From Aliiroseovarius crassostreae (GTDB taxonomy: Bacteria > Pseudomonadota > Alphaproteobacteria > Rhodobacterales > Rhodobacteraceae), in assembly GCF_001307765.1 (NCBI RefSeq), contig NZ_LKBA01000023.1:1-64000 (forward strand): a stretch of 64,000 nucleotides of DNA. Direction: 5' to 3'. Below are positions 5,452 to 53,272 of the stretch, in pieces; within the stretch, counting starts at the first letter, position 1; each line of letters opens with the position of its first letter. Made by a program: the position numbers and the translations under genes. The notes under the pieces are model-generated. The model was not told the origin of the DNA and searched no databases. It saw only the letters and a list, made by a program, of their open reading frames with translations.

Positions 5452-5491
5452 TAAAGCGTTTCGGGATCAACTTGAAGCACAGGGTTGTTCC
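5452..5491 (+). repeat. GCGTTTC palindromic-family repeat, copy 1 (half element)
   Basis: TAAAGCGTTTCGGGATCAAC starts a copy of the dispersed element described in the findings. The inner arm GGATCAAC can pair with GTTGTTCC downstream (7 of 8), but the closing GAAACGC arm is absent. The copy lies in the 344-bp gap between the VOC gene and metY. Apart from this repeat I see only likely promoter and leader sequence of metY in that gap, and no riboswitch that I can recognise. Confidence 0.6.
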
Positions 5492-5726
5492 GCCCCCCAT
5501 CCTGCGCGGCAAACTTGCCCTGTCGTCACCACAACCTGCAATATTTTGTTACAAACCCCGCCTCACCACGAAACGACATCCCAAAAAGAATGGTATTTGC
5601 GGAATATTATTTCGCACTTTGAAAATGCTGCAAATCCCCTCCCCTTTCCAATGGCGGGTGCACCCTGTTATTGAAGCGGTTTCGTCTTTCGCCTAGCCTG
5701 CCGGCAACGAGTTTAGGGAGACAGAC

Positions 5727-7019
5727 ATGACCGAAGAACGTCAATGGGGTTTTGACACGCTGCAAATTCATGCCGGAACCGCTCCGGATCCGGCAACTGG
5801 CGCCCGTCAGGTTCCGATTTACCAGACCACTGCCTATGTATTCAAAGACGCCGAACACGCCGCGCGCCTCTTCAACCTTGAAGAAGTCGGCTATATCTAC
5901 TCGCGCCTGACCAACCCGACCGTGGGGGCGCTGCAAAACCGGATTGCCGAACTCGAAGGCGGCGCGGGCGCTGTCTGCTGCTCTTCCGGTCACGCCGCCC
6001 AGATCATGGCGCTGTTTCCGCTGATGGGACCGGGGCTGAATATCGTGGCCTCGAACAAGCTTTATGGCGGCACGGTCACCCAGTTCACCCAGACATTCAA
6101 ACGGTTCGGCTGGGAAGCCAAGCTGGTGAACTTTGATGATCCGGCCGCAGTGGAAGCCGCGATTGACGACAACACCCGCGCGCTTTTCTGCGAAACCCTG
6201 GCCAACCCGGCGGGCGTGCCCACCGACATTCCGGCCATGGCCGACATTGCCAACAAGGCCGGCATTCCGCTGATTGTTGACAACACCTCGGCCACCCCCT
6301 ACCTGGTGCGCCCGATCGAGCTTGGCGCCACCATTGTTGTGCACTCCACCACCAAATACCTGACCGGCAATGGCACCGTGACCGGCGGGGCAATTGTCGA
6401 CAGCGGCAAGTTTGACTGGATGCAAAACGATAAGTTCCCATCACTCAGCCAGCCGGAACCGGCCTATCACGGGCTGTGCTTCGGTCAGGCGCTTGGCCCG
6501 ATGGCCTATACGTTCCACGGTATCGCCATCGGCCTGCGCGACCTCGGCATGACGATGAACCCGCAGGCCGCGCATTACACGCTGATGGGGATCGAAACCC
6601 TGTCGCTGCGGATGGAAAAACATCTGGCCAATGCGCGCAAAGTGGCAGAATGGCTGGAAGCGGATGACCGGATCGACGGCGTGACCTGGGCCAGCCTCGA
6701 CAGTTCACCCTATAAGGCGCTGGCCGACAAGATCAGCCCGAAAGGCGCCGGTGCATTGTTCACCGTGGCGGTCAAGGGCGGGTATGATGCCTGTACCAAG
6801 CTGGTCGACAGCCTGAAACTGTTCAGCCATGTGGCCAATCTTGGCGACACCCGCTCGCTGATCATCCATTCGGCCTCGACCACCCACCGCCAGCTGAGCG
6901 AAGAGCAGCAGGTGATGGCGGGCGCGGCCCCCAATGTGGTGCGCCTGTCCATTGGAACCGAGGATGCAGATGACATCATCGCCGACCTTGATCAGGCGCT
7001 GGACACCGCCTGCTCCTAA
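5727..7019 (+). CDS. metY: O-acetylhomoserine aminocarboxypropyltransferase (sulfhydrylase)
   Basis: The 430-residue, full-length enzyme belongs to the PLP-dependent Cys/Met metabolism family. It makes homocysteine directly from O-acetylhomoserine and sulfide for methionine synthesis in the cytoplasm. Diagnostic stretches are DTLQIHAGTAPDPATGARQVPIYQTTAYVF at the start, YSRLTNPTV, and VVHSTTKYLTGNG, whose Lys (about residue 210) binds PLP. The length and the QTTAYVF start favour MetY over the shorter MetZ or MetB types. A GGGAGA element precedes ATG 5727. The gene ends in TAA that is also the first triplet of a dispersed palindromic repeat, followed by a terminator. Confidence 0.93.
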   Translation: MTEERQWGFDTLQIHAGTAPDPATGARQVPIYQTTAYVFKDAEHAARLFNLEEVGYIYSRLTNPTVGALQNRIAELEGGAGAVCCSSGHAAQIMALFPLMGPGLNIVASNKLYGGTVTQFTQTFKRFGWEAKLVNFDDPAAVEAAIDDNTRALFCETLANPAGVPTDIPAMADIANKAGIPLIVDNTSATPYLVRPIELGATIVVHSTTKYLTGNGTVTGGAIVDSGKFDWMQNDKFPSLSQPEPAYHGLCFGQALGPMAYTFHGIAIGLRDLGMTMNPQAAHYTLMGIETLSLRMEKHLANARKVAEWLEADDRIDGVTWASLDSSPYKALADKISPKGAGALFTVAVKGGYDACTKLVDSLKLFSHVANLGDTRSLIIHSASTTHRQLSEEQQVMAGAAPNVVRLSIGTEDADDIIADLDQALDTACS

Positions 7020-7050
7020 AGCGTTTCAGGATAAACTTGATACACTTTAA
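7016..7050 (+). repeat. GCGTTTC palindromic-family repeat, copy 2 (half element) overlapping metY stop
   Basis: CTAAAGCGTTTCAGGATAAAC and the following TTGATACACTT match the left half of the dispersed repeat. The TAA at 7017-7019 is the metY stop codon. The right arm is missing; an intrinsic terminator follows 20 bases later. Confidence 0.6.
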
Positions 7051-7070
7051 GAGCTTTAAGACAAAAAAGA

Positions 7071-7100
7071 AGAGCCGCCCATCAGGCGGCTCTTTTATTT
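7071..7100 (+). terminator. Bidirectional Rho-independent terminator
   Basis: AGAGCCGCC (7071-7079) pairs perfectly with GGCGGCTCT (7085-7093) around a 5-base loop, followed by TTTATTT and preceded by an A-rich run. It sits between convergent metY and the SIMPL-domain gene and can serve both. Confidence 0.88.
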
Positions 7101-7121
7101 ACAAAGGCTTACATAGGGTTT

Positions 7122-7820
7122 TTAATTCTCAATACCCAGAGAAAACTCCATCAGAACCTGCGCTGAGATTTCGATTTCCCCTGCCGCGACCGGCATGTTT
7201 CCGTCTGCCTCCATCGACATGCGCGCCATACCGAACTGGGGCGACGGAGAGGCGCCCCCTTCGCTGATCCGCAGCACCGGTCCAAGCGACACCCCCGCGA
7301 CCTCAGCCAGCAGATTGGCCTTGTGCACCGCGTTTTTGACCGCTGCGGCACGGGCCTGATCCTCGGCAGCCTGCCGGTCGCTCAGATCGAAACTCAATCC
7401 TTCGAACTGGTTCGCCCCGGCACGCATCACCCGGTCCAGAACCGGACCCAGATCTGTGAGGTCGCGCACGACAACTGTCAGGGTCGATATGGCCTCGAAC
7501 CCGACCTGTCGAGGGGAGGTGTTGCCAGAATAATCCATCATGGGCGAAAGACGCAGCTGGGTGGTTTGCATATCCTTTTCGGCAATGCCCGCCTTGCGCA
7601 GGTTTTCCAAAACCGAGGACATCGCCACGGCAACCTGACCGCTGGCTTCAGCCGCCTCCTTTGCCTGCTGACGCACCCCCAGACGGATCCGCGCGAGATC
7701 GGGTGCAACCGACACCGTGCCCTGCCCGCTGACCTGCACCTTTGGCAAGGGGCCCGTATCCGCCTGCGCAGCACCTGCCATGCAGAGCGCAATCCCAAAA
7801 ACAGCAAGTAATTTCTTCAT
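7122..7820 (-). CDS. SIMPL (DUF541) domain periplasmic protein
   Basis: The 232-residue protein has a signal peptide (MKKLLAVFGIALCMAGAAQA) followed by a SIMPL/DUF541 domain: VSGQGTVSVAPDLARIRLGV, MQTTQLRLSPMMDYSG, FEAISTLTVVVRDL and the C-terminal EIEISAQVLMEFSL. Family members are periplasmic or outer-membrane associated; some are implicated in oxidative-stress tolerance, but no enzymatic activity is established. A TAGGAGAG ribosome binding site precedes the ATG. It is transcribed away from the large PilP-tailed gene and ends at the shared terminator with metY. Confidence 0.88.
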   Translation of the reverse strand: MKKLLAVFGIALCMAGAAQADTGPLPKVQVSGQGTVSVAPDLARIRLGVRQQAKEAAEASGQVAVAMSSVLENLRKAGIAEKDMQTTQLRLSPMMDYSGNTSPRQVGFEAISTLTVVVRDLTDLGPVLDRVMRAGANQFEGLSFDLSDRQAAEDQARAAAVKNAVHKANLLAEVAGVSLGPVLRISEGGASPSPQFGMARMSMEADGNMPVAAGEIEISAQVLMEFSLGIEN

Positions 7821-8080
7821 GTTACTCTCCTATCTCACGCCAGCTTGCGCCATTTCCCGCCTTGTTCAATCAATTGCACCCTCCCACTCTTTCCATGGGC
7901 AATTTCCTGCTGTAGTTTCGGCTTGGCAGGCGGTTATTGGACCTAAATTGCAAGCGGGTATTGGGCTGGCTGGGTCCTCTCGTGTTTTGGCAAATGCCAC
8001 AGGATCAGAAAGACGCAATGGCTGCGGTGGCGTGCGCATGGAACGGCACCGGAGATGCGACAAGGGAAAAGAACACCGGT

Positions 8081-10879
8081 ATGACGCCAGGATTTGCGCT
8101 TGATCTCACCCATGAGGGAATCGCCCTGATGCACCGCGGAAAGGGTGGCTGGTCCCTTGTTGGCGAGGTTAAGCTGGATGCAGCGGACCTGCCCGCACAA
8201 CTGGGCATGATGCGCCAACGGGCCGTGGATCTGAACACCGGTGGATTTGCCACCTCGCTGATCATCCCTCCTTCTCAGCTGCTGTTCACAACCATGACAG
8301 CCCCCGGCCCCGATGACATCACCCGCGAGGCCCGCATCCGTGAAGGGTTGGAAGGGCTAACCCCCTACCCGGTCGATAAGCTGGTGTTTGACTGGTATGC
8401 CGATGGCGACATGGCTCATGTGGCGGTTGTGGTTCGCGAAACCCTGAAGGAAGCGGAAAGCTTTGCCGTGGAAAACCGACTGAACCCGGTTGCTTTCATG
8501 GCTCGCCCGCATGGCAGCTATGAGAGGGTGGCCTGTTTCGGCAAAACGGCCTGCGCGGCGGAACACCTGCCGGAAGGGGCCACGGTGAACCTTGACGAGC
8601 TTGCCCCTCCAATCCTGATGGGCACCGGCGCATCCCTTTCCTCTTTGGACACGCCTGCTTTGGACGCAGCCCAGACAGACACGCCGGAGGTGACTGCCAA
8701 CGCCCCTCTGGCAGAGCCTGAAGAGAACGCATCGACACAGGATGGCGAAAAGCAGGATGATACCGCCCCGACGGCAGATACCGCCCCTGTTCTGGCGCCT
8801 TTTCCCCCCGACTTTGTTCCCGAAGAAAAAAGTGGTTCCAAACAGCCTCAAAAGGAGGCTGGCAAGTCCGGCGACCAGAGCCTTGCTGGACAGAATACCG
8901 AACAGAACACTGACAAGCAGGACCGTGACAGGCAGGACAGTGATCAGCGTCCGGACGCACCGGCCTCTGCCCCCCGCTCCGATATGGCGCCGCCTTCCGC
9001 CCTTGGCAGCACCTCCAAGACCCCCTCTTCGGACACGGGCAACAAAACACCTGCAGAAACATCCGCCCCCCCCGCATTCGCAAGCCAGCGCAGTGGTCAG
9101 GATGCACAAGCGGGTGGAAAGACCGCCCCCTCCGTTCCAACAAAAACCGTTGCGACCCGACTTCACATCACCCCCCCGACAGCCCCCACACATCGCCCGC
9201 AAGAAGTGCATGTGCCCGTGACGGCCCCCTCGCTGGAGGGTGCGGAAAACAAAACCATCACTCCCCCGGCTGAGGGCACCCTGACGCCGCAGAAAACCGA
9301 CAACACCGCACGGCCACACGAGGCGAAAGCTGCCAAGAAACCTGAACAACCGTCGCCAGAGGGGCCCCTTTCTGCCAACGAAGACAAGGCAGGCAAGCCC
9401 CCTGTCGCAGCACCAGCTCAACCAGCAAAGCCGAAACGGCCCGCTCAGAAAACCAGCCCAGGCGCCACCGCAACTCAGTCGAATATGACTGTCGCGCCAC
9501 CCCCCGGAGCAATGTCAGGCGCCCCGAAAATCCCGCAGCCTGGCAAAGCCCACCGGTCCCCTTCTGAGACCGACGCGATGACGGTCTTTGGTGCGCGCCG
9601 CAGTGACACGCCTGCGGGGCAGCGCAAATATCTCGGCCTGATTTTGGTGCTCGGTTTGCTCCTGATGATGGCCATTCTGGCCGTATGGTCGATGTTCTTT
9701 CTATCAGATCAGGCCAGCGAACTGTTCCCCGACCAGCCTGACCAGTTTGAAAGTGCAATCACAACCGGACAAGACAGCATTGACGCGGCAGAGCTGGAGG
9801 CCGAGCCGGAAGCGGCGGAAGATCTGGACGTCACAGATGCTGCGGCGCCTGAAGGGTTTGAGCAGCTCTCTCAGGAAGTCGCCGCAACACGTTACGCGGC
9901 CACGGGCATCTGGGAACGCGCCCCCGATGCCATCGTCGGTCCGCCTGCCGGGGCCATTGACGACCTTTATGTTGCCTCGATTGACCCGGAAGGTCTTGCC
10001 CATGATGCGGTTGCTTTGCCCGACATTCCTCTTCAGACCTTGGCCTCGGGGACGCAGATCGGGGGCAGCCATCTTGCCCCACCCCCAAAAGGAACCAAAT
10101 TTGACCTGGATGAGAACGGTTTCGTGCGCCCGACGGCTGAAGGCAGCCTGACACGTGACGGGGTTATGGTTTTTGCAGGACTCCCCCCCCGTGTGCCGCC
10201 AATAAGGCCGGACGGGCTTTTTGCGGAAACAAGCCTGCCTGCCCCCGTTACGGCGGATCCCGCCCTGGCCGGCAAACGCCCGCTGCTCCGTCCGGAGGGG
10301 TTGGTTTTGACAGAAGAGGAGCGGTTGTTTGCAGGCCGCACCCGTCAGGAACTGGCCACACCTGCGCCAACCCTACGCCCAGCCGGGCTGATTTCTCAGG
10401 GGCAGGCCGTCGCTCAGGCTGAGAGCATCGCAAATGCCGTGGAAAACGCAGCGCAGGTGACATTTGTCAGCCCTACGGAACGCGCCATCACCAGATCGCT
10501 CCTCCCCCGCCCGCGCCCCGGTCGCTTTGATAAAATCGTCTCCTCTGCCCCTTCGGTCGAGGATGCGTCAGACGGATCGGTGGTCATTGCGGCAACTCCG
10601 CCCAATCAGGTTGTCACCCCTGCCCTGCCGACCCGCGCGTCTGTGGCCAAACAGGCCACGATGAAAAATGCGATCCCGCTGCGCAAGGTTGCGTTGATTG
10701 GCATCTATGGAAGTGCTGCAAAGCGCCAGGCATTGGTGCGCTTGTCCAACGGCCGGTATGTCAAAGTTGGCGTGGGGGATCGTCTGGATGGCGGACGGGT
10801 GGTGTCGATCTCTGAAGGGCAACTTGTCTACAAAAAGGGATCCCGGACCAACACGCTGAAAATTCTTCCTTTCAGCTGA
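8081..10879 (+). CDS. Large membrane protein: PilM/GspL-like head, disordered linker, one TM helix, PilP-like tail
   Basis: About 932 residues. Residues 1-180 look like the actin-like cytoplasmic head of PilM/GspL proteins (ALDLTHEGIALMHRG, SQLLFTTMTAPGPD, LEGLTPYPVDKLVFDWY). Residues about 185-510 are a Pro/Ala/Thr/Gln-rich, probably disordered linker. A single membrane helix (KYLGLILVLGLLLMMAILAVW) covers about 516-541. The periplasmic part carries repeated RPxGL motifs (IRPDGLF, LRPEGLV, LRPAGLI), and the last ~65 residues (KVALIGIYGS, ALVRLSNGRYVKVGVGD, VVSISEGQLVYKKG) resemble PilP/GspC domains. It may tie a type IV pilus or secretion-like envelope machine together, but no pilus gene is nearby. 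The start at 8081 matches where the conserved domain begins; 8019 and 7937 are alternatives. Confidence 0.75.
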   Translation: MTPGFALDLTHEGIALMHRGKGGWSLVGEVKLDAADLPAQLGMMRQRAVDLNTGGFATSLIIPPSQLLFTTMTAPGPDDITREARIREGLEGLTPYPVDKLVFDWYADGDMAHVAVVVRETLKEAESFAVENRLNPVAFMARPHGSYERVACFGKTACAAEHLPEGATVNLDELAPPILMGTGASLSSLDTPALDAAQTDTPEVTANAPLAEPEENASTQDGEKQDDTAPTADTAPVLAPFPPDFVPEEKSGSKQPQKEAGKSGDQSLAGQNTEQNTDKQDRDRQDSDQRPDAPASAPRSDMAPPSALGSTSKTPSSDTGNKTPAETSAPPAFASQRSGQDAQAGGKTAPSVPTKTVATRLHITPPTAPTHRPQEVHVPVTAPSLEGAENKTITPPAEGTLTPQKTDNTARPHEAKAAKKPEQPSPEGPLSANEDKAGKPPVAAPAQPAKPKRPAQKTSPGATATQSNMTVAPPPGAMSGAPKIPQPGKAHRSPSETDAMTVFGARRSDTPAGQRKYLGLILVLGLLLMMAILAVWSMFFLSDQASELFPDQPDQFESAITTGQDSIDAAELEAEPEAAEDLDVTDAAAPEGFEQLSQEVAATRYAATGIWERAPDAIVGPPAGAIDDLYVASIDPEGLAHDAVALPDIPLQTLASGTQIGGSHLAPPPKGTKFDLDENGFVRPTAEGSLTRDGVMVFAGLPPRVPPIRPDGLFAETSLPAPVTADPALAGKRPLLRPEGLVLTEEERLFAGRTRQELATPAPTLRPAGLISQGQAVAQAESIANAVENAAQVTFVSPTERAITRSLLPRPRPGRFDKIVSSAPSVEDASDGSVVIAATPPNQVVTPALPTRASVAKQATMKNAIPLRKVALIGIYGSAAKRQALVRLSNGRYVKVGVGDRLDGGRVVSISEGQLVYKKGSRTNTLKILPFS

Positions 10880-10976
10880 CCCTGCCACTTGCAGACACTC
10901 CGCACCACCTTGCATTTTCTTGCGTGATCCACCAGCCCGAACTATGGTTTGTGAAAAATTTCTGCAGGAAATGCTT

Positions 10977-11441
10977 ATGGATCACCTAGATGCCCGCCTC
11001 TTGTCGGCACTCCAGAAAAATGCCCATCTCACCGCCCAGGAACTAGGGGAAATCCTGCACCTGTCCCCCAGCCAGGCAGGGCGCCGCAGGCAACGTCTTG
11101 AGGAGCTTGGTATCGTCAAAGGATATACGGTGCGTCTGGATCCGCTGGAACTGGGCCTGTCCGTGCAGAGCTTTATTCAGGTAGAAATGTCGAGCCACAC
11201 GCCAGAAGCGGCACACGCCTTTTCGCGCATGATCGAAACCCATCCAGAGGTGATTTCGGCCTGGACCCTGACCGGAGCTGCGGACTATCTGCTGCGGGTT
11301 TATTGCGCAAATCTGGCAGCACTCAATCACCTGATCCATGATGTTCTGTTGCCACATCCTTCAGTCGCGCGTGTCCAAAGCCAAATCGTGATGAACCAGT
11401 TGAAATCAGACGCCCCTTTACCTGTCTCACCGGACATATGA
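10977..11441 (+). CDS. Lrp/AsnC family transcriptional regulator
   Basis: The 154-residue protein has the family layout: an N-terminal helix-turn-helix (LDARLLSALQKNAHLTAQELGEILHLSPSQAGRRRQRLEELGIVKGY) and a C-terminal RAM ligand-binding domain (HPEVISAWTLTGAADYLLRVYC, then VARVQSQIVMNQL). Such proteins form octamers that respond to amino acids. The ligand is unknown, since neither neighbour is an amino acid gene. CAGGAA seven bases before ATG 10977 decides the start over an upstream in-frame candidate at 10920. Confidence 0.9.
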   Translation: MDHLDARLLSALQKNAHLTAQELGEILHLSPSQAGRRRQRLEELGIVKGYTVRLDPLELGLSVQSFIQVEMSSHTPEAAHAFSRMIETHPEVISAWTLTGAADYLLRVYCANLAALNHLIHDVLLPHPSVARVQSQIVMNQLKSDAPLPVSPDI

Positions 11442-11537
11442 GCGAAGTTCTGGCAGATTTCCGTCCGGTGTTAACCAAGCGGGAAGGTCTGCCACATAAT
11501 CTCCAGAGCAGCCATTTCTTACTCTGGATGTCTAACC

Positions 11538-12761: not shown

Positions 12762-12799
12762 CACCATATTCGAGTGACAAAACCGGGTTGCGAGGCCCC

Positions 12800-13819
12800 T
12801 TACCCGTCCGAGACACCTGCTTCGGCAAAGGTCGCCATCCCGGAGTGGCAGGCAATCGCACCTTTCAGGACGCCAATGGCAAGCGCCGCGCCGGAGCCTT
12901 CCCCCAGGCGCATCCCAAGCGACAAAAGCGGGGCTTTGCCGATATGCGTCAGAACACGCTCATGCGCGGCTTCAGCAGAAACATGCCCTGCCACAGCGTG
13001 ATCCAACGCCCCCGGCACCACTGCCGACAGGCAGGCCGCCGCCGCCGAACAGATAAAGCCATCAAGAATGACCGGAATACCCTCAACCCGCGCACGCGCA
13101 ATTGCACCTGCCATGGCAGCAATTTCACGCCCGCCCAGACAGCGAAGGGCCTCCAGACCGTTTTCCGAAGCTTGCGGATTTGCTGCGAGACCCTCTGCAA
13201 CCACGCGGGATTTCAGATCAATTCCCGCATCATCCACCCCCGTGCCACGCCCGGTCCAATCGCCAGAGGCTCCGCCGAACAAAGCATGCGCAATGGCAGC
13301 GGCCGAGGTGGTATTTCCGATGCCCATTTCCCCGGTCACCAGAAGATCACATGCGGGATCAACCGCCTCCCAACCCGCAGTCAGCGCCGCAACCACCTCG
13401 TCTTCGCTCATGGCGGGGGCCTGCGTGAAATCAGCAGTGGGTTTGTCCAGCGACAGGGCATGCACATCCATTTTTGCCCCAAAAGCTTTCGACAACTGAT
13501 TGATCGCCGCCCCACCATGCTGGAAATTCAGAACCATCTGTTCGGTCACTTCCGCCGGGAATGCGGAAACGCCCCGGACGGTCACACCGTGGTTTCCAGC
13601 AAAAACAATCACCTGCGGCGCCTCAAGCGACGGACGCCCGTTGCCGCGCCAGCTTGCATACCAGATAGCGAGGTCTTCCAGACGGCCAAGCGCGCCCGGT
13701 GGCTTTGTCAGCTGCCCATTGCGGTCCTGCGCTGCGGCTTCGGCAGCGGTGTCTGGCCCGCGAGCCCCCTCCAAAAGCGCCTTGAATTCCGCAAGTGTGG
13801 AAAATGACTTGTCTGACAT
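12800..13819 (-). CDS. cobT: Nicotinate-nucleotide--dimethylbenzimidazole phosphoribosyltransferase
   Basis: The 339-residue enzyme makes alpha-ribazole phosphate, the lower ligand of cobalamin, from 5,6-dimethylbenzimidazole and nicotinate mononucleotide. Family motifs are [50 protein letters not shown] and the C-terminal [15 protein letters not shown] containing the catalytic Glu. Length is normal. It is transcribed divergently from cobS, 80 bp away, the two acting in consecutive steps of nucleotide-loop assembly. Confidence 0.95.
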
Positions 13820-13899
13820 GGCCCGATCCCCGATTGATTCCTCGCTCTCTCCTCTTTACCGAGGAGAGGTGGAACGAACCAGATCACAAAAGACTTAAT

Positions 13900-14685: not shown

Positions 14686-14686
14686 A

Positions 14687-20065: not shown

Positions 20066-20176
20066 TAAAGCGGTTCGGTATTGACCTGACAATGGGAAAA
20101 ACCGAACCACTGCAAGAGATATCAATGATGTGGGCGTTTCAGAATAAACATGTGTCTCAAGTTTATCCAGAAACGC
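20066..20176 (+). repeat. GCGTTTC palindromic-family repeat, copy 3 (two hairpins)
   Basis: The first hairpin, 20066-20108, has arms GGTTCGGT (20072-20079) and ACCGAACC (20101-20108) after TAAAGC. The second, 20134-20176, has outer arms GCGTTTC and GAAACGC and inner arms ATAAAC (20144-20149) and GTTTAT (20161-20166). Between them lies CAAGAGATATCAATGATG, which recurs in copy 4 and partly in copy 5. A further loose TTAGCGTTTCGG is at 20039. The second hairpin ends 20 bp before the SCP2 gene's ribosome binding site, so it lies in or near its leader. Confidence 0.75.
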
Positions 20177-20207
20177 TTCAGGTAAAGTGACCAATGGAGG
20201 ATTGCAC

Positions 20208-20498
20208 GTGAGCGACGTGATCACTGCGGCCGTAGCGGCCCTGAGCGAAAAACTGACCGGCGGATTTGACGCCGGCACCGCCAAATTCGAGATTGAAGGC
20301 GAAGGCGCCATCATCCTCGACAGCAACGGTGTGCGCGCAGGTGACGATGATGCGGATGTTACCCTGAAAGCAGATGCCGATGTCTTCGAAGACATTCTGG
20401 CCGGGAACCTGAACCCGACCACCGCCTTCATGACCGGCAAGCTGAGCGTGGATGGCAATATGGGGCTGGCGATGCAGCTGGGCAGCGTCCTGAGCTGA
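20208..20498 (+). CDS. SCP2 sterol-binding domain protein
   Basis: The 96-residue protein is a single SCP2 domain: VAALSEKLTGGFDAGTAKFEIEGEGAIILD, ADVTLKADADVFEDILAGNLNPTTAFMTGKLSVDGNMGLAMQLGSVL. Family members bind lipids or fatty acyl groups in a hydrophobic tunnel; the bacterial role is usually unknown. GTG 20208 was chosen as start because GGAGG (20196-20200) sits seven bases before it; an upstream in-frame ATG at 20187 has no such site. The alpha/beta hydrolase gene follows 52 bp later on the same strand, and a shared role in lipid handling is plausible. Confidence 0.88.
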   Translation: MSDVITAAVAALSEKLTGGFDAGTAKFEIEGEGAIILDSNGVRAGDDDADVTLKADADVFEDILAGNLNPTTAFMTGKLSVDGNMGLAMQLGSVLS

Positions 20499-37287: not shown

Positions 37288-37380
37288 GGGGCAAAATTGC
37301 CCCCGCGGCACCGCCGGGTCAACAGCGCAAAGGGGGGCTGCGACATTTCAGTCGCTGTCTTTTTGCATCCTTAGGGGAAT

Positions 37381-37487
37381 GCGTTTCGGGACAAACCTGA
37401 AACACATGTATTTTGCGAAACGCCCATGAGATTGATATCTCATACGGCGGCTCGACGTTTCCCGATAGAAGGTTAAAGTCGAAACGC
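37381..37487 (+). repeat. GCGTTTC palindromic-family repeat, copy 4 (two hairpins)
   Basis: The first unit, 37381-37423, runs from GCGTTTCGGGACAAAC to GCGAAACGC with CAAA/TTTG as the inner pairing. The spacer contains GATTGATATCTCAT, which on the other strand reads ATGAGATATCAATC, the same spacer seen in copy 3. The second unit, 37454-37487, has GACGTTTC and GAAACGC arms. The pair fills most of the space between divergent glnE and the YbaK gene. Confidence 0.72.
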
Positions 37488-37520
37488 CTGAGGGTGCGAG
37501 GAACGAACGAAGGAACAGAG

Positions 37521-39347: not shown

Positions 39348-40184
39348 ATGACCATGCGCCATTCTCTTCCCCTTGCGCCGCAGTTTTATGTAACTGCGCC
39401 CCAGACCTGCCCCTATCTTGAGGATCGGCAGGAGCGCAAACTGTTTACCGCGCTTCAGGGGGAACACGCATCCGAACTGAATGACAGCCTGTCCAAGCAG
39501 GGATTCCGCCGCTCACAAAATGTGCTCTATCGCCCCTCTTGCGCGGAATGTAATGCCTGCCTGTCGGCCCGAATTCGGGTTGAGGATTTCGTTCCGACCA
39601 AAAGCCAGAAACGGACCGCGCGGAAAAATGCAGCCCTGCAACGGCGGGCCCGCGCGCCTTGGGCCACCGAAAACCAGTTTGACCTGTTTCGCACCTATCT
39701 CGACAGCCGCCATGCAGATGGAGGCATGGCGGATATGGATGTGTTCGAATTTGCAGCGATGATCGAAGAAACCCCGATCAAGACGCGGGTGATTGAATAC
39801 CGTTCCCCCAGCGATCAGCGCAAAGGAGACCTGACCGCGGTCTGCCTGACCGATGTGCTCGATGATGGGCTGTCGATGGTGTATTCCTTCTATGACCCGG
39901 ACCTGCAGGATCTGTCCCTGGGCACCTACATGATCCTTGATCACATTGAACTGGCCCGCGAAGTGGGTCTTCCCTATGTCTATCTGGGCTATTGGGTGCC
40001 CGGCAGCCCGAAAATGGACTACAAGGCCAAATTCTCCTCTCTCGAAGTGTATCGCCGTGGGGAGTGGGAGCCGTTGCAGGACCCGAAAGCCTATGAGGTG
40101 GATCAGCATCCGCTCTCTACTGATCCGATTTCAGAGCAGGTTGCGGGGATCCAGCTGCCCAGCCTGCCAAACACGGATCATTAA
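39348..40184 (+). CDS. bpt: Aspartate/glutamate leucyltransferase (Bpt, arginyltransferase-like)
   Basis: The 278-residue enzyme transfers leucine from Leu-tRNA to N-terminal Asp or Glu of proteins, marking them for ClpS/ClpAP degradation (N-degron pathway). The start has [24 protein letters not shown]; the cysteine-rich element [13 protein letters not shown] and the C-terminal [24 protein letters not shown] are typical. The related eukaryotic ATE1 transfers arginine; bacterial Bpt sequences like this use leucine. The TAA stop is the first triplet of a dispersed palindromic repeat. Confidence 0.92.
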
Positions 40185-40225
40185 AGCGTTTTGGTTTTCT
40201 CCTGACACAGGAGACGTCGAAACGC
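40182..40225 (+). repeat. GCGTTTC palindromic-family repeat, copy 5, overlapping bpt stop
   Basis: TAAAGCGTTTTGG starts at the bpt stop codon. Outer arms GCGTTT and AAACGC (40186-40191, 40220-40225) enclose a different inner stem, TCTCCTG/CAGGAGA (40198-40204, 40208-40214). GGCAAGAGATGCCAATAC follows, resembling the spacer of copies 3 and 4. The rest of the region up to the ilvB promoter (about 40250-40440) shows no gene. Confidence 0.72.
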
Positions 40226-40444
40226 GGCAAGAGATGCCAATACTATTGACGTATCGGGATATACGCCCCCCTGAACCCGTTTCATGCCGCCCTGCGTGTC
40301 CGTCACAAAAGGTCTGCGCAAAATTTTGACCGCACCCGACCAATTCCCGCCAGCATTTTTTCACTTATTACCAGAATGAGCAATATTATTTCCAAATAAT
40401 TCAAAAAAACAGACCCTGCGACATTTTATTCGTCATTTTCGCTG

Positions 40445-42432: not shown

Positions 42433-42445
42433 GGAGACGAAGAAA

Positions 42446-46900: not shown

Positions 46901-47650
46901 TTTGCCGCCGCCTGACAGGGCTTCGTTTTCGGCACGCAGGCTGGAAAAATTCGTGCCGGTGCCCGACCCGTATTTGAACAGGCGCGCCTCGCGCACCCAC
47001 AGATCCATGATCCCGCCATTACCCACCAGATCATCGCCAACGGATTGGATGAAGCAGGCATGGGGTTGCGGATGCTCATATGCGCTGGTCGAACGGGTCA
47101 GTTTCTTTGTCGTATGATCGACATAGTGATGCCCCTGACTTGGCCCATCAATCCCATAGGCCCAGTGCAGCCCCGTGTTGAACCATTGGGGCGAGTTCGG
47201 GGCGGCCCGCTGGCTTGCAAGCATGTGGCGCATTTCGTCGAAATACGCGCGCGCATCCTCTTCTGACGTGAAATACCCGCCCTTCCAGCCCCAGTAGGCC
47301 CAGGCCCCGGCCAACCGATCGAAAACCTGTTTGGCTGAGGTTTCGCCACCAAACCGCGCCTCTTGCGGCAGTTCATCCATAGCTTTTTCGTCCGGAACCG
47401 AGCGCCAGAGGAAGGATGGAACCCCCTTCTCCTTCACCCGTTTCGACACCGCCGGAACGCCTGCTTTGCGGAAATATTTCTGCGCAATCACATCCGAGGC
47501 AACCTGGCTCCAAGAGGCGGGAACTTCGCAGTTTTCAAGCTGGAACACAATACTTCCATCAGGGTTTCGGATCTCGGATGAAGTGGTGGTGAAATCCAGG
47601 TCAGCATAGGCATCCGCTCCGGCTTTGGTGAATTTGCGCTCAATCTTCAT
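43943..47650 (-). CDS. nrdJ: Vitamin B12-dependent (class II) ribonucleoside-diphosphate reductase
   Basis: The 1235-residue enzyme reduces ribonucleotides using an adenosylcobalamin-derived radical and needs no oxygen or iron subunit. Recognisable stretches: [74 protein letters not shown] (with the substrate-site Cys) and [22 protein letters not shown]. The C-terminus ends in a Cys-rich finger ([23 protein letters not shown]), which normally reduces the active site or binds metal. The upstream region holds a candidate NrdR box. It gives the cell a direct need for the cobalamin genes elsewhere in the window. Confidence 0.96.
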
Positions 47651-48197
47651 CTTGCCCTGTCATCCTTATGCATGCGGTATGGCCATTGGCCACTCTGTCC
47701 CAAAAATCTTCGGCATCGACAACCCAAGGCAGAAACAGGATCTTTCATGCGCATTGCGACAACGCCAAGACCGCCACGGCAGCCCTCATGCACTATGCCA
47801 ACTGTCCCATCACCACCAGTCCACCATATATTGTGGCCATGCGATCGACCCCCACAACGTGGCGTAGGAGGACATGAGACGTCAATGATATTTTAAGATA
47901 TATCCACAGCTCTTTTCCATTGACCCAACATGGCAGTTTTGCCGTTAGAAATTAACCTTTTGATTCCCCGGAACACAACCACCACGTGCAGCCTTATTTT
48001 CCTGATAATTCGGTTGGCTGATCCCCTCTTCTCCCGACGCGGCCACATACGTCTGGGGTGCGCCCCTCATTTCGGGATCTGTGGAAAACCTTGTGTAAAG
48101 ATACACAAATCCGAAAACTCGGGCGCTCTCACCCCAAACCTCTCAGGGGACACACGCCCCTTCGGAGCGGTCCAGACACAACAGATAGAAGGGAAGA
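47651..48197. other. Intergenic region between nrdJ and tRNA-Pro
   Basis: Apart from the candidate NrdR box pair, this 547-bp stretch shows no convincing gene. An AT-rich segment near 47893-47905 (TTTTAAGATATATCCACAG) probably belongs to the nrdJ promoter area. Several short open frames exist, but none has coding-like composition or a ribosome binding site. Confidence 0.5.
47821..47836. promoter_or_regulatory. Candidate NrdR box upstream of nrdJ
   Basis: CCACCATATATTGTGG fits the NrdR consensus (a palindrome around ATATAT with CAC and GTG arms). A second, weaker palindrome CCACAACGTGG lies at 47852-47862, about three helical turns away, as NrdR boxes usually come in pairs. NrdR represses ribonucleotide reductase genes when dATP is high. 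The box is about 170 bp before the nrdJ start. Confidence 0.55.
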
Positions 48198-48274
48198 TGG
48201 TCGGGACGGCAAGATTCGAACTTGCGACCTACGGTACCCAAAACCGTCGCGCTACCAGGCTGCGCTACGCCCCG
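48198..48274 (-). tRNA. tRNA-Pro (anticodon UGG)
   Basis: The minus strand gives a full cloverleaf: acceptor CGGGGCG/CGTCCCG (one G-U pair), D arm GCGCAGCCTGGTAGCGC, anticodon arm ACGGT-TTTGGGT-ACCGT with anticodon TGG, T arm GCAAG-TTCGAAT-CTTGC, discriminator A and an encoded CCA (48200-48198). The UGG anticodon reads CCA and CCG, and with modification other Pro codons. Confidence 0.95.
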
Positions 48275-48378
48275 ACAGAAGGACAGATAACGATCTCTTT
48301 TGTGCGAGAAAAGCCCTAAACGACGGAAAAGTGAGAAATCTGGCCAGAAAATTTTCAGGTGACAGCCAGGAAATCGTG

Positions 48379-48843
48379 TCACTCGGAACAGGGCCAGGCG
48401 GCAAGGCTTTGCACAACGAAAGGAGAGCGCAATTCGCTGCCTTCTGAAATGCCGATCTGCCGCGCCAGCCCCCCGTTGATTTCCAGAACATAGCGCACAT
48501 CCTGCCCCCCGCTGACAGGGGTCAAATCCCCGGGCTGCGCATTTTCATGCACATAGGTGACCCGCCCATCAGAGGAGAGAAAGATCATGTCCAGCGGGAT
48601 CAGGGTGTTTTTCATCCAGAATGCCACCTGATGCGCGAAAGGATAGACAAACAGCATCCCCTGCCCTTTTGGCAGTTCTTCACGAAACATCAGCCCCTTG
48701 GCGCGCTCCCGGTTCGTTTGGGCCACTTCAACGGAAAACCCCGCCTGCCCCCAGACCCCGCGCAGATCCACGCGATCAGAACGACACTCAGCCTGCCCTG
48801 GCAAGGCCAGACAGATCAGCAAAACTGAAAGCAAAAAACGCAT
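48379..48843 (-). CDS. DUF192 family exported protein
   Basis: The 154-residue protein has a signal peptide (MRFLLSVLLICLALPGQA) and a DUF192 domain: VEVAQTNRERAKGLMFREELPKGQGMLFVYPFAHQVAFWMKNTLIPLDMIFLSSDGRV and the C-terminal RYVLEINGGLARQIGISEGSEL. DUF192 proteins are small secreted beta-rich proteins of unknown activity. ATG 48843 begins the signal peptide; an in-frame upstream start at 48873 was rejected. It follows the cold-shock gene by 63 bp on the same strand. Confidence 0.9.
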   Translation of the reverse strand: MRFLLSVLLICLALPGQAECRSDRVDLRGVWGQAGFSVEVAQTNRERAKGLMFREELPKGQGMLFVYPFAHQVAFWMKNTLIPLDMIFLSSDGRVTYVHENAQPGDLTPVSGGQDVRYVLEINGGLARQIGISEGSELRSPFVVQSLAAWPCSE

Positions 48844-48906
48844 GAACCAGATCCCTTGTCGCCCTGCCCGCATTCAAAACGCAAAGGCAGGACAAGATCA
48901 ACCACT

Positions 48907-49437
48907 TCAGTTCACGGCAGTATCCCAAGCCGATACGACAAGAGCGAGTTTTCCGCGTTTTCCCTGAACCGTGCGCAGGCAAATCGCCTCTCCGGGCTGG
49001 AGGTCTGCCAAGCCGGACCGGCGCAGAACCTCGATATGAATGAACACGTCTTCATCCGAGCCAAAGATATTGGCAAAGCCAAACCCTTTGCCCTTATCAA
49101 ACCACTTCACGCGGGCGGGCTCAATCGGGCCAGCATTTTCGAGATCTATTTCACCGGTCTGTTCTTCGCTCAGCCCCGTCAGATCATCTGTTTCCGGCGG
49201 CGTTATCGACCGGACGAGAACCGCCTGACGACCACGCTGGGTGTCCTGCACTTCAATCTCAATCCCGGCCCCGTCCGCAACGGAGCTTTGCCCATAATTT
49301 CTCAGGACATTGGCGTGAAGCAGAATATCTGCGCCACCCTCATCGGCAATCACAAACCCAAATCCCTTGGTGGGATCAAACCACTTTACATGTCCATGCA
49401 GAACCACTGTGTTCTGCACCTCAGACTCGTGCATCAT
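48907..49437 (-). CDS. Cold-shock protein with two cold-shock domains
   Basis: The 176-residue protein has two CSDs. The first, about residues 11-75, contains GHVKWFDPTKGFGFVIADEGGADILLHANVLRNYG; the second, about 108-172, contains ARVKWFDKGKGFGFANIFGSDEDVFIHIEVLRRSGLADLQPGE. Both keep the RNP1 (KGFGF) and RNP2 (DILLH/DVFIH) motifs, so both can bind single-stranded nucleic acid. Double-CSD proteins of this length are typical of alphaproteobacteria. Start is ATG 49437 or the adjacent ATG 49434. Confidence 0.94.
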   Translation of the reverse strand: MMHESEVQNTVVLHGHVKWFDPTKGFGFVIADEGGADILLHANVLRNYGQSSVADGAGIEIEVQDTQRGRQAVLVRSITPPETDDLTGLSEEQTGEIDLENAGPIEPARVKWFDKGKGFGFANIFGSDEDVFIHIEVLRRSGLADLQPGEAICLRTVQGKRGKLALVVSAWDTAVN

Positions 49438-49574
49438 CTGGTCACCCTAAAAGTTCACATCCCCATGTATAGTTTTGAAACAATTGGTGTTTGCCCGCAA
49501 GCCAAAACTACCTGTCCTTTTAGACAGGTTTTGACCGGTAACCCTGCATGAACAACGCAAAAATTTACTTTCTT

Positions 49575-50180
49575 TTAAGGATTTAACCGGGTCACACACC
49601 AATTCAGATTACCCTTTTCGCGTGTCCATCGAAAGCGGTCATGCAATCGGAACGCGCCATCCGCCCAGAACTCTATCTCGACCGGGTGAATGCGATACCC
49701 CCCCCAGAAAGGAGGACGTTTCGGTGATGGACCATGGGTGGCGGTGACTTTGGCAACCTCAGCCATCAGCGCGGCACGCGATGAAAGCGGCGCGCTTTGG
49801 TGTGAGGCCCACGCCCCGAGGCGGCTTTTCAGCGACCGGGAGCTGTAATAGGCATCTGCCTGCGGCCCCTCCTCACGTGTCACCGTGCCGCGCACCCGGA
49901 TCTGTCGGCGCAGCGATTTCCAGTGCATTACAAACGATGCCTTGCCGGTGGCTTCGATCTCCTGCGCCTTGGCCGAGCCATAATTGGTATAGAAAACGAA
50001 AGCGTCATCCTCGATCTCTTTCAACAGCACCATTCGGGAATTCGGCATCCCCTTCGGATCCACCGTGGAAAGCGCAATGGCATTGGGGTCGTTCGGCTCG
50101 GATACTTCCGCCTCAATCAACCAGTTGCGCGCAATTTCAAATGGGTTGTCGCCCGCAAAGATCCCGTCCCGCTCAGACAT
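49575..50180 (-). CDS. pdxH: Pyridoxine/pyridoxamine 5'-phosphate oxidase
   Basis: The 201-residue FMN enzyme makes pyridoxal 5'-phosphate. It has [63 protein letters not shown] and the C-terminal [14 protein letters not shown]...DRFRW...W. The C-terminal ends [11 protein letters not shown] rather than the usual ...RLAP/RLYP but keeps the R-L-x-P form. ATG 50180 ([14 protein letters not shown]) was chosen over 50216. It is divergent from fabI. Confidence 0.94.
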
Positions 50181-50337
50181 GTCACTTCCTTTCAGAACCA
50201 ATCTAACAGATGCCATTAAGGCGCATTTGCCTCGCGATTGTCAGCCTAATGTATCTGGCCTTTCCAAGCAGGCTTGCAGTAAGATGGGCAATCGCCTAAA
50301 TGGGCTTAAACCAGAAATGTGGGACGGGGAACAGAGA

Positions 50338-51156
50338 ATGTCGACCGGTTTGATGAATGGCAAGCGCGGCCTGATTATGGGGCTCGCAAATGACAAATCC
50401 ATTGCATGGGGGATTGCCAAAGCCTGTGCGGATCAGGGTGCAGAGCTTGCCTTTTCCTATCAAGGGGACGCTTTGAAAAAGCGGGTGGCCCCGCTGGCGC
50501 AACAGCTTGGGTCGGATATTGTCGAACCCTGCGACGTGTCGGATGCCGCTTCGATTGACGCGCTTTTTGCCACGCTGGAAGAGAAATGGGGCAAGCTGGA
50601 CTTTATCGTACATGCCATTGGTTTCTCGGACAAAACTGAACTTCGCGGGCGGTATATCGACACCAGCCCCGAGAACTTCCGCCTGACCATGGATATCTCT
50701 GTCTACAGCTTTACGGCCGTGGCCCGCCGTGCGGCGGCAATGATGCCGGATGGCGGTTCGATGCTGACACTGACCTATTACGGCGCCGAACAGGTGATGC
50801 CGCATTACAATGTGATGGGTGTTGCCAAAGCCGCGCTTGAGGCCTCGGTCCGCTACATGGCCGAAGACCTGGGCAAGGATAATATTCGTGTAAATTCGAT
50901 CTCTGCCGGCCCGATCAAGACGCTCGCCGCTTCCGGGATCGGGGATTTCCGCTACATTCTGAAATGGAATGAGCTGAATTCGCCCCTGCGCCGCAATGTG
51001 ACGATTGAAGATGTCGGCAAGTCCGCGCTGTATCTCCTGTCCGACCTCGGCAGCGGTGTCACCGGTGAAACCCATCACGTGGATGCCGGCTATCACGTTG
51101 TCGGCATGAAAGCGGTCGATGCACCGGATATCGACGTGGCCACCGGCCGCAAGTGA
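50338..51156 (+). CDS. fabI: Enoyl-[acyl-carrier-protein] reductase (NADH)
   Basis: The 272-residue short-chain dehydrogenase carries out the last reduction of each fatty acid elongation cycle. Motifs: GLIMGLANDKSIAWGIAKACADQGAELAFSYQGDALKKR, HAIGFSDKTELRGRYIDTSPENF and the catalytic Tyr-x6-Lys in YNVMGVAKAALE. It is a single-gene member of the FabI branch, the usual triclosan target. A short upstream in-frame extension begins at 50065 but overlaps pdxH. gpt follows after 15 bp. Confidence 0.95.
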   Translation: MSTGLMNGKRGLIMGLANDKSIAWGIAKACADQGAELAFSYQGDALKKRVAPLAQQLGSDIVEPCDVSDAASIDALFATLEEKWGKLDFIVHAIGFSDKTELRGRYIDTSPENFRLTMDISVYSFTAVARRAAAMMPDGGSMLTLTYYGAEQVMPHYNVMGVAKAALEASVRYMAEDLGKDNIRVNSISAGPIKTLAASGIGDFRYILKWNELNSPLRRNVTIEDVGKSALYLLSDLGSGVTGETHHVDAGYHVVGMKAVDAPDIDVATGRK

Positions 51157-51171
51157 TTGAAAGGGACTGTT

Positions 51172-51675
51172 ATGACTGATCGTCTGCCCCATGAAAAAGG
51201 ATTCCACATCAGCTGGGACCAGATCCATCGCGATTCTCGGGCGCTGGCATGGCGTCTGGACGGACAGGGCCCGGATGATGGCGCATGGCGCGCGGTTGTG
51301 GCCATTACCCGTGGCGGCATGGCCCCCGCGATGATTGTCAGCCGTGAACTCGACATTCGCACCGTGGATACGATTTCCGTACGCTCCTACCACCATCAGG
51401 CCCAGGGCGAGGCGGAAGTCCTGAAAGCGCCGGACGAAAAGATCATGGGCGACGGCGAAGGCATCCTGATCATCGACGATCTTGTCGACAGTGGCAAAAC
51501 GCTGGAACTGGTACGGCAAATGTATCCGAAAGCGCATTTCGCAACGGTTTATGCCAAGCCCAAGGGCCGCCCTCAGGTGGACACGTTCATCACTGAAGTC
51601 AGCCAGGACACATGGATTTTCTTCCCCTGGGACATGGCCCTGCAATATGTCGAACCCTATCGGGGCAAAGACTGA
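51172..51675 (+). CDS. gpt: Xanthine phosphoribosyltransferase
   Basis: The 167-residue purine-salvage enzyme has the PRPP-binding loop [20 protein letters not shown] near residue 98 and the usual start [21 protein letters not shown] with [17 protein letters not shown]. It converts xanthine, and less well guanine or hypoxanthine, to nucleotides. AAGGGA lies before ATG 51172. It follows fabI closely and is probably co-transcribed with it. The region after it is a mobile-element graveyard. Confidence 0.92.
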
Positions 51676-52537
51676 CCGCCGCAGACAGGTAAGCTGGCAG
51701 GAAAATGGATCGGTGAACTGACCGGCAAAAGACACCCCGACCCTGCGTGAAGCATTCCAGGTTCTGGGACACAAAACGGCCCCCTGTTGAGATTTTTCTC
51801 GCCAGCGGAGTGGGAAACTACACGCTCAGCGCTGATGAGATCGCCAGGCCCTCCTGACGTGCCCCCATGGGGTGGTCCAGATCGATGATGTCGTCGCTCA
51901 GATGGTCTTCATCGGCACGGCCTAGCGGCACCTTGCGCTGAGTGGATCGATGCCGCACATGATCAATGCACTTCCGGCGACGTGAAGGGGTTAGAAACCT
52001 CTCGGTGATTGCTGCGCATTCACCTGCCGGTCAGCGGTATTCCCCTCACGGCTTCGCTCAGAATGAGCTTGTCCAGGATCAGGTCAACACCACCCGCTGC
52101 ATCCCGCCATAAAGCTTCCGCCATCGAGAGAACCTTTGCTGGGTCACGCCGATCTGGCACACCGCTTCCGCAACCGTCGCCCCTTGTCCTTGCAGAACTT
52201 AAACCTGCCGAAGATTTAATACTATCTCTTCGGGTTTCTCTCGCTTTCCAGCCATCGCAGATCCTCCAATTTACAGAACAAAATATCCCAGTTGCTGGAC
52301 CACTTTCAGGGGAATAATCTACAAAAGTTGGCGTCGGCCGTCGTCAGGCAGTGGTTTGAAGTTGCTTAATTCCGTCTTTGAACTCAACACCCTGAATGAC
52401 CTCGGGCAGACGGGTTTGCCCTGCCGCAATCAGACGTTGCAGTGGGATACCGCAAGGTGTTTGCCACATCTCCTCCTCATTTCCGTGTTAACCTTAACTT
52501 GTGCAAAAACAGTGATCCGGGGGGAGGAAGAGGCAGC
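51676..52537. other. 862-bp region without intact genes
   Basis: Besides the IS3 remnant, the minus strand at about 52440-52344 encodes a coding-like fragment (LPEVIQGVEFKDGIKQL) of unrecognised origin. The stretch 51676-51877 shows no recognisable coding signal, though some of it may be more of the decayed orfB. The region separates gpt from two small intact genes and looks like a former insertion hotspot. Confidence 0.55.
51878..52315 (-). mobile_element. Degenerate IS3-family element remnant
   Basis: From 52255 the minus strand encodes MAGKREKPEEIVLNLRQV, then stop, then VLQGQGATVAEAVCQIGVTQQ and RWRKLYGGMQR, and in a shifted frame LILDKLILSEAVRG: a decayed IS3-family orfA with an in-frame stop and an internal deletion. 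Further on, 51955-51878 encodes RHRSTQRKVPLGRADEDHLSDDI, the start of IS3 orfB. The sequence TGGACCACTTTCAGGGG near 52296-52312 is the typical IS3 terminal sequence. The rest of orfB is gone. Confidence 0.75.
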
Positions 52538-52690
52538 ATGACCAAGATCCGTCCCCCTGACCCAAAAGGTGCAACTGAGCGCAGGATGCACAAATCCGAC
52601 CCCACCCCGCCATCGAAACGCAACAAGGCGAAACTCACGCCTCAGGACAAAGAAACAGATGTGGTTTTCACCGACTGGGCCAGTATCTGA
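52538..52690 (+). CDS. Small conserved-looking protein of unknown function
   Basis: A 50-residue frame (MTKIRPPDPKGATERRMHK...) follows an excellent ribosome binding site (GGGGGAGGAAG) seven to ten bases before ATG 52538. It is hydrophilic, rich in Lys and Pro, and ends VVFTDWASI. It lies 39 bp before the TfoX-type gene on the same strand and could be co-transcribed with it. I do not recognise it. The strong ribosome binding site is the main reason to call it. Confidence 0.6.
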   Translation: MTKIRPPDPKGATERRMHKSDPTPPSKRNKAKLTPQDKETDVVFTDWASI

Positions 52691-52729
52691 TCCTTTTTCC
52701 CGCCGGGATTTCACGCTAATCTACGGGCT

Positions 52730-53077
52730 ATGAGCAACCCTGTTTCCAGCATTCGAAATCTCGGCCCCGCCTCCGATGACGCCTTTGCCCGCGCCGGGAT
52801 CACCAGCGCGGAGGAGTTGCGCTCTCTTGGGCCGGATGAAGCCTATTTCCGGCTGCTCGACAGCGGGCACACCCCACATTTCATAGGATATTACGCCATG
52901 GTGATGGGACTTCAGGGTCGGCCATGGAACGATTGTCAGGGCGCTGAGAAAGCCAAGCTGCGCAAGCGGTTCGACAAGATCAAGGCGCGGGTGGCAAATG
53001 GGGCTATCAGCGATCTGGCCCATGACGCGGCTTTTGAACGGATCCTCGACGAGATTGGTATCCGCGCCCGGCGATGA
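52730..53077 (+). CDS. TfoX/Sxy C-terminal domain protein
   Basis: The 115-residue protein matches the helical C-terminal domain of TfoX/Sxy: IRNLGPASDDAFARAGITSAEELRSLGPDEAYFRLLDSGHTPHFIGYYAMVMGLQGRPWNDC. The N-terminal TfoX domain, which in gammaproteobacteria activates competence, is absent. Stand-alone versions are common in Rhodobacterales and their role is unknown; a link to competence should not be assumed. ATG 52730 fits the family start. Confidence 0.85.
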   Translation: MSNPVSSIRNLGPASDDAFARAGITSAEELRSLGPDEAYFRLLDSGHTPHFIGYYAMVMGLQGRPWNDCQGAEKAKLRKRFDKIKARVANGAISDLAHDAAFERILDEIGIRARR

Positions 53078-53098
53078 CACGCTTTATGGCGACTCGCA

Positions 53099-53130
53099 CA
53101 AAAAAACCCGACCCCTTACCGGGGCCGGGC
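53099..53130 (-). terminator. Rho-independent terminator downstream of ndk
   Basis: On the minus strand a CCCG-GCCCC / GGGGTCGGG stem (one mismatch) is followed by a run of seven T. It lies about 140 bp past the ndk stop, beyond the double palindromic repeat, so the repeat is transcribed as part of the ndk 3' region. Confidence 0.75.
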
Positions 53131-53157
53131 TGATCATCTGGATCGAACCTGTGGCTT

Positions 53158-53272
53158 AAAGCGTTTCGAGATTAACTTAAGACACAAGTTGATTTCGAAA
53201 CGCCCGCAACATCAGTAGGTTTCGAGCGTTTCGCCTCATTATTGTTTCTCAATAATAAGTCGAAACACTTTA
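53158..53272. repeat. GCGTTTC palindromic-family repeat, copy 6 (two hairpins), overlapping ndk stop
   Basis: Hairpin one (53158-53203) has AAAGCGTTTCGA and TCGAAACGC ends and inner arms ATTAACTT/AAGTTGAT (one G-U). Hairpin two (53226-53272) has GCGTTTCG and CGAAACACTTTA ends and inner arms with CTCATTATTG/CAATAATAAG (one G-U). Read on the minus strand, hairpin two starts with the ndk stop TAA. The 22-bp spacer is CCGCAACATCAGTAGG-like. This is the best-paired copy. Confidence 0.8.

Follow-up and report, generated by a model that had tools for sequence, protein, structure and literature searches.

The stretch of the Aliiroseovarius crassostreae draft genome analysed here (the window; 64,000 nt of contig NZ_LKBA01000023.1, from its first position) carries, at six intergenic places, copies or remnants of a short dispersed repeat that we firmly assign to a family of miniature inverted-repeat transposable elements (MITEs) of the IS630 type. 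An initial annotation of the same DNA had described about nine full or half copies of a palindromic element at these places. Element-like sequence is indeed present at all six, but single hairpins had been counted as copies: with the covariance model R1, built from 28 copies (alignment A1), the stretches at 20066-20180, 37377-37491 and 53157-53272 each form one element with two hairpins. The unit is larger than first described. It is 115 or 116 bp long, begins with TAAAGCG, ends with CGCTTTA and reads, at the places in the window as in copies from the same genome, TAAAGCGTTTCG, hairpin 1, linker, hairpin 2, CGAAACGCTTTA. Two main subfamilies, A and B, are distinguished by the linker and the inner stems. 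By R1 score the window holds three full copies, one copy with a single hairpin and two fragments (Table 1); all three full copies belong to the training set of R1. The arm motif GCGTTTC/GAAACGC, singled out from the start as recurrent, is found 27 times in the window, compared with a mean of 11.5 in shuffled sequence and with none of 100 shuffles giving a count as high.

Table 1. Copies and remnants of the element in the window, with their scores under model R1
Feature	Position	Strand	R1 score and remarks
Fragment, truncated first hairpin	5452-5492	+	18.9 bits, E 0.028, over 5452-5547; near noise; end set partly by eye
Fragment, outer arm and apex only	7017-7045	+	18.0 bits (-), E 0.045; 11.1 bits (+); near noise
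Full element, subfamily A, 115 bp	20066-20180	-	117.6 bits
Full element, subfamily A, diverged ends GAAT...CTGA	37377-37491	+	87.9 bits
Single hairpin with some of the linker, its partner lost	40182-40249	-	38.4 bits over 40182-40284 (-); 23.2 bits over 40182-40249 (+)
Full element, subfamily B, 116 bp	53157-53272	+	113.3 bits
Hairpin 1 / hairpin 2 of the preceding element, linker between	53161-53203 / 53226-53268	+	

Three of these places coincide with the stop codon of a neighbouring open reading frame (ORF). The TTA at 53270-53272 that ends the subfamily B element is the minus-strand stop codon of an NDK-domain ORF at 53270-53704 (-), the TAA at the start of the copy at 40182 is that of an arginyl-tRNA-protein transferase (ATE) ORF at 39348-40184, and the TAA of the fragment at 7017 is that of a Cys/Met-metabolism enzyme ORF at 5727-7019; this fragment is also a 90% inverted match to 20152-20182. 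The element at 20066-20180 lies directly upstream of an SCP-2 domain ORF at 20187-20498 (+) (NDK, ATE and SCP-2 assignments from Pfam). For the copy at 37377-37491, the orthologous intergenic stretch is approximately 100-125 bp shorter in the three relatives compared (G001, G005 and G019, G numbers denoting genomes and L numbers loci), as measured by the gaps between flanking matches, and plasmids of A. crassostreae carry copies 94.8% identical to the one at 53157-53272.

The terminal 11-mer TAAAGCGTTTC occurs 205 times in the 3.72-Mb genome and a reversed control pattern not once, and R1 locates the element at no fewer than about 134 distinct places (150 rows, from which 15 opposite-strand duplicates and one overlapping pair were removed by hand). 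The proposal of one dispersed family is thus borne out by a genome-wide search that returned far more than a handful of hits. Further afield, where the counts per genome in the wide searches are lower bounds, R1 has matches in 20 of the 21 genomes of the genus, this one included (G007 has none), whereas the 24 genomes searched in other families of the class gave none. The genus is the GTDB genus of Aliiroseovarius, as match coordinates in three of its genomes are the same as those in named Aliiroseovarius genomes. The spread is patchy: at one genome per genus, matches are found in 14 of 295 Rhodobacteraceae genomes, again counting this one, and among 80 named loci around aspartate kinase only L135, from a Rhodobacteraceae metagenome-assembled genome, has any. 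A second model, R2, with few candidates scored per genome among the 385 searched, gave elements of 101-105 bp in three genomes of other alphaproteobacterial families. The 34 element hits in 242 kb comprise 10 between convergent genes, 8 in tandem and 3 in divergent gaps, 11 overlapping ORFs and 2 at edges, with a gap background of 45 convergent, 81 tandem and 35 divergent; the ORF caller is crude and many of the overlapped ORFs look spurious, which makes this comparison too rough to lean on. Literature searches by sequence and by topic, within one collection of papers, found no paper naming the family among the matches listed, as far as titles and the openings of abstracts tell, and Rfam has no match to the element in the window at the gathering threshold, nor in 14 loci at E up to 1.

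Sites with and without the element define how it is inserted. Some copies stand at the same place in different species, with surrounding DNA that is 86-92% similar, and a search of the 21 genomes of the genus with flanks joined without the element also recovers empty sites. At G019:C2:383348-383462 the element is absent in five aligned relatives (G002, G003, G005, G011 and G016; more matched): the filled site reads ACC-TA-[113 bp]-TA-AGC and the empty site ...ACC-TA-AGC..., with a single TA in each of the five. The element is also absent in aligned relatives at L065, L219, L223 and L068, where junctions are blurred, the clearest case being L219, which lies at a stop codon. Within A. crassostreae itself, the putA stop codon on the plasmids of eight strains is filled in two and empty in six, and all six empty alleles have a single TA, which is proof within one species of insertion with duplication of TA. 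At the tamB/katG site seven of the eight strains are filled and one is empty with a diverged junction; a third site is filled in all eight.

TA is present at both ends in 78 of 106 full copies, and the target is Y-TA-R, with a pyrimidine at -1 in 61 and a purine at +1 in 62 of the 65 full copies of this genome (35 and 38, respectively, of the 41 from other genomes). TAA and TAG both fit TAR, which makes stop codons preceded by a pyrimidine good targets. Insertion into such a codon does no harm, as the element brings a TAA of its own; this is seen at the stop codons at 7017, 40182 and 53270 and in putA.

IS630-family elements make TA duplications, as described in the paper on ISY100 (PMC2170065), and the duplication of TA therefore suggests that a DDE transposase of this kind is at work, one that an element of 115 or 116 bp is too short to encode itself. 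The transposase domain DDE_3 (PF13358) is found in 7 of 16 carrier genomes, and three end-to-end insertion sequences (IS) have ends that match those of the element: L279, in G013 of the same genus (1045 bp, with a transposase ORF of 320 aa that scores 172 bits with NF033545); L354 (1054 bp), identical, including 30 bases of one flank, to L377 on a plasmid of Octadecabacter sp. SW4; and L376, from Pseudosulfitobacter (1056 bp, annotated as IS630 family transposase). The relics L356, L353, L282, L358 and L365 match the element ends as well. Altogether, 12 IS630 ends agree with those of the element at 22-27 of 28 positions; for the three end-to-end IS the range is 22-26. Among 741 control sites that share the seed, drawn from 79 loci lacking the element, 4 score 22 or more, and the best scores 24. 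Even the polarity is kept: in the three end-to-end IS the CTGAATC end fits the 5' ends of the element better by 1-4 positions, and the end with CTGAGACA or CTGCGACA fits its 3' ends better by 1-4 positions. In G149 a relic end is identical at 27 of 28 positions to elements of the same genome, and G548, from another alphaproteobacterial family, has a 1054-bp IS630 element with TAGAGC[GA] ends. The folding of the element is not shared by the IS ends (-24.8 kcal/mol for the element versus -4 to -13 for the IS ends, over 60 bases), so that the inner arms look like an addition of the element's own.

The inner arms had been described at the outset as differing in sequence while still pairing, and two alignments confirm this with strong compensatory changes. 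Alignment A2 contains the 84 distinct first hairpins from the 106 full copies (nine were left out because of indels or poor arms, and the rest are duplicates). In A2, 92.1% of cells pair, both sides have changed in 15 of 19 pairs, and the number of double-changed cells is 133 versus 30.6 after shuffling, with none of 500 shuffles as high. Alignment A4 draws its 76 full copies from twelve groups, one being the genus and eleven being other genomes: 61 of the 62 cross-genome copies (L075 is left out) and 15 from the genus. Here 31 of the 35 pairs in the two helices have double changes, double-changed cells number 429 versus 144.5 shuffled, and pairing reaches 88% versus 33-45% in slid versions. 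The outer arms covary too, for example GCGTCTCGCC in G148.

A comparison of very similar copies separates this long-term pattern from the fate of individual insertions. Between copies that differ at one or two positions, 80 pair cells have changed; not one of these changes is compensatory, and in 62% pairing is lost or regained. Between copies with three or four differences, approximately 1% of 332 changed cells are double changes. The sequence pairs overlap in these counts, so that the changed cells are not independent. Counting drift in copies of modal length only (26 of 29 in subfamily B, 21 of 29 in subfamily A), the young subfamily B changes at a rate of 0.0221 per site per copy in the inner stems versus 0.0228 in linker and loop. 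Its transitions keep pairing in 11 cases and break it in 8; in subfamily A the corresponding counts are 26 and 26. Outer stems are slower in both subfamilies (0.0103 and 0.0432), but the copies were fetched by their ends. Young dispersed copies thus drift nearly freely, and pairing seems to be selected in the propagating lineages and not in each copy. The selection for a folded structure that was proposed initially is therefore likely, but it seems to act at the level of propagating lineages rather than on each resident copy.

We read the family as non-autonomous transposable elements of the IS630/Tc1-mariner kind, with two hairpins whose pairing is kept by lineage, and put the probability of this reading at approximately 0.88. 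Each end corresponds to the last ~28 bp of an IS630-family element (TA-AAGCGTNNCG....AACCTGA[ATC/GAC]A) and, unlike in the IS, is followed by its inverted complement, so that two hairpins form with a linker between them. A DDE transposase of the IS630 family, which we infer to work in trans, would cut at the TA ends and insert the element into Y-TA-R with duplication of TA; the duplication and the match of the ends are both observed. The one-hairpin forms of 48-51 bp that also occur in this genome probably arose when DNA between repeats of an arm sequence, GAAACGC or GCGTTTC, was deleted. The pairing of both hairpins is kept long-term in propagating lineages while single resident copies drift; our favoured guess is that an insertion within a read-through transcript is tolerated because its end folds, or else that folding helps the ends to pair during transposition. 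The structure, then, is real, the resident copies largely drift and the benefit seems to belong to the element.

Several observations weigh against a MITE mobilized by IS630. DDE_3 is found in only 2 of the 21 genomes of the genus, and our draft genome (27 contigs) has no matching autonomous IS630 element, its single DDE_3 match being a fragment. Only 7 of the 19 IS630 loci inspected have clearly matching ends, several loci being cut at contig ends; the transposase of L354 reads in more than one frame, with a longest ORF of 227 aa, and L376 was found through its similarity to L279, so that its end pair is not independent. The junctions at L065, L223, L068 and tamB/katG are blurred or diverged and do not allow the duplication to be judged there, and movement itself is deduced from filled and empty sites. 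Drift is also incomplete: in the older subfamily A the inner stems change more slowly than linker and loop (0.108 versus 0.155), and 12 changed pairs are compensatory. Finally, copies were fetched with the terminal pattern and with structure-containing models, so that intact paired copies are favoured. As to the partner, the IS630 fragment of the window genome was considered and rejected, as its ends score 9-11 of 28.

The slower stems and the compensatory changes of subfamily A would also be expected if the host kept each hairpin at its place as an RNA signal, i.e., as a terminator, a 3'-end protection or an RNase site. The strong covariation of both hairpins and the several copies located exactly at stop codons agree with such a role, but we consider it unlikely: compensatory changes are absent among copies with one or two differences, most of whose changed pairs lose or regain pairing, the inner stems of young subfamily B change as fast as linker and loop, and the presence of the element varies between strains. 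That resident copies largely drift argues against host use of each of them. A mirrored wobble asymmetry is seen in A4, with 142 G.T versus 32 A.C cells in hairpin 1 and 45 versus 98 in hairpin 2, so that in either hairpin G.T is preferred on the strand that runs inward from that hairpin's end of the element. This would fit a role for the first hairpin that a transcript meets, but column composition predicts G.T:A.C ratios of 155:64 for hairpin 1 and 75:121 for hairpin 2 and so explains much of the preference, and young copies are unbiased. We therefore rejected the asymmetry as proof of RNA function and treat it as a lead only.

Alternatively, the arms could be complementary through mutation and not selection, either by template switching (quasi-palindrome correction) or by exchange of arms between copies. 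Long inverted arms are known substrates for quasi-palindrome correction, and there are mosaic copies, e.g., L043/L045, that by eye join a subfamily A-like 5' arm to a subfamily B 3' arm. Correction, however, predicts double changes between very similar copies, where we find none at one or two differences and approximately 1% at three or four, and the drift of resident copies argues against routine template-switch repair. Mutation is thus an improbable source of the pairing.

The initial annotation noted a resemblance to REP or BIME families and pointed to a REP-associated tyrosine transposase as a gene to look for. Like the element, REP, BIME and REPIN sequences have many intergenic copies (here >100) and paired inverted hairpins, and a REPIN-type element would be moved as single-stranded DNA by a RAYT, a tyrosine HuH transposase. 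The genome does contain eight Y1_Tnp (PF01797) matches (L051-L058), two of which neighbour the family: L052 is situated immediately 3' of one copy, and L054 adjoins half a copy. However, all five Y1_Tnp proteins scored against NCBIfam are IS200 TnpA and not RAYT, with 96.6-148.9 bits at an IS200 cut-off of 55, and none of the five reaches the REP-transposase cut-off of 80 (31-43 bits), three partial matches of 64 positions being unscored. By the criteria of PMC3733652 and PMC6006769, so far as these sources were consulted, a GTAG or CGTC tag is expected at the foot of the hairpin, which in the aligned copies is by eye TAAA or a near variant. With the element ends matching IS630, and with TA duplicated at the empty sites, which already contradicts the REP reading, we regard it as very improbable. 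IS200 was likewise rejected as the mover, despite the neighbourhood of L052 and L054, because the TA duplication argues against it. The three partial matches (L056-L058) are one shortened IS200-like ORF common to three places.

The least credible alternative, a fixed regulatory or chromosome-organising protein-binding site spread by gene conversion, would suit the highly conserved arms and apex, but it is already contradicted by the exact 113-bp presence or absence with TA duplication and disagrees with the patchy occurrence within the family.

Among previously described repeats, the CIR elements of Caulobacter and Brucella (Chen & Shapiro 2003) appear in a 2007 review by Delihas (PMC2229807) as intergenic sequences of ~110 bp with two stem-loop arms, a linker, TA termini and GANTC in the terminal loop; the account there gives no inverted terminal repeat, lists target duplication as unknown and leaves mobility unresolved. 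Our element shares with CIR the two arms and linker, the length of ~110 bp, the TA termini and the intergenic location, and differs from that description in its TA duplication and inverted terminal repeat. GANTC is present in 36 of the 62 copies from other genomes, nearly always at an apex, and GAATC stands at the first apex in 5 of the 7 readable R2 elements from other families, but in the window genome only 8 of 65 copies have GANTC (3 at the apex of hairpin 1), as do 6 of 41 others, mostly of the genus. GANTC was therefore rejected as a conserved site of the window genome, where most copies lack this loop site of CIR, and the element, set beside CIR by description, is CIR-like rather than CIR. 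Tentatively, and at rather less than even odds, CIR-type two-arm repeats might themselves be IS630-driven MITEs: the apical GANTC, where CcrM methylates, would be part of one IS630 end, so that methylation might couple movement to the cell cycle, an inverted repeat of each end would have been added to make hairpins selected in the spreading lineage rather than for the host, and the window genome would represent a burst of subfamilies without the methylation site. The RIME elements of Rhizobium, reportedly alphaproteobacterial repeats of ~108 bp with two palindromes (Osteras, in 1995, is said to have described them), resemble ours, by description, in size and in the two palindromes.

RUP of Streptococcus pneumoniae, a MITE of IS630-Spn1, is described as ~107 bp long, inserted at TA and sharing its ends with an IS630-family element (PMC2229807). 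Compared by description, it is similar to our element in size, TA insertion and IS630 ends; it has another host, and the account in that review does not present it as two covarying hairpins. In G149 (L355:1288-1402) an element directly abuts an IS630-like transposase coding sequence, which recalls the insertions of RUP into IS genes. Correia/NEMIS and ERIC are listed in Table 1 of the same review as short MITEs with TA termini, target duplication and folding transcripts, but by the descriptions given they fold by end-to-end pairing, whereas our element forms two arms.

What is new here is an IS630-type MITE family with two covarying hairpins, IS630-type MITEs as such being already known. Through this family, a kind of alphaproteobacterial repeat for which PMC2229807 called mobility unresolved gains a partner class (IS630) and a target rule (Y-TA-R). 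Named A. crassostreae strains with filled or empty alleles also make it possible to test directly how hairpin insertion affects transcripts. It also illustrates that covariation as proof of structure can be separated from covariation as proof of host function for each copy. The interest of the family lies in what its hairpins may do and in a possible connection with CIR and CcrM.

Some further forms were observed. The only Rfam match of the window at the gathering threshold is a tRNA gene at 48201-48274 (-). The genome also has forms of 128 bp, at L031:1023-1150 and L037:956-1083, in which hairpin 2 is enlarged by 13 bp, and at L011:1407-1511 there is a relative of 105 bp that has TAGAGCG/TAAAGCG ends, contains GANTC twice and folds differently inside. 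At L119:1260-1487 (G000:C7:85259-85486) element ends overlap or nest, an arrangement that suggests the insertion of one copy into another.

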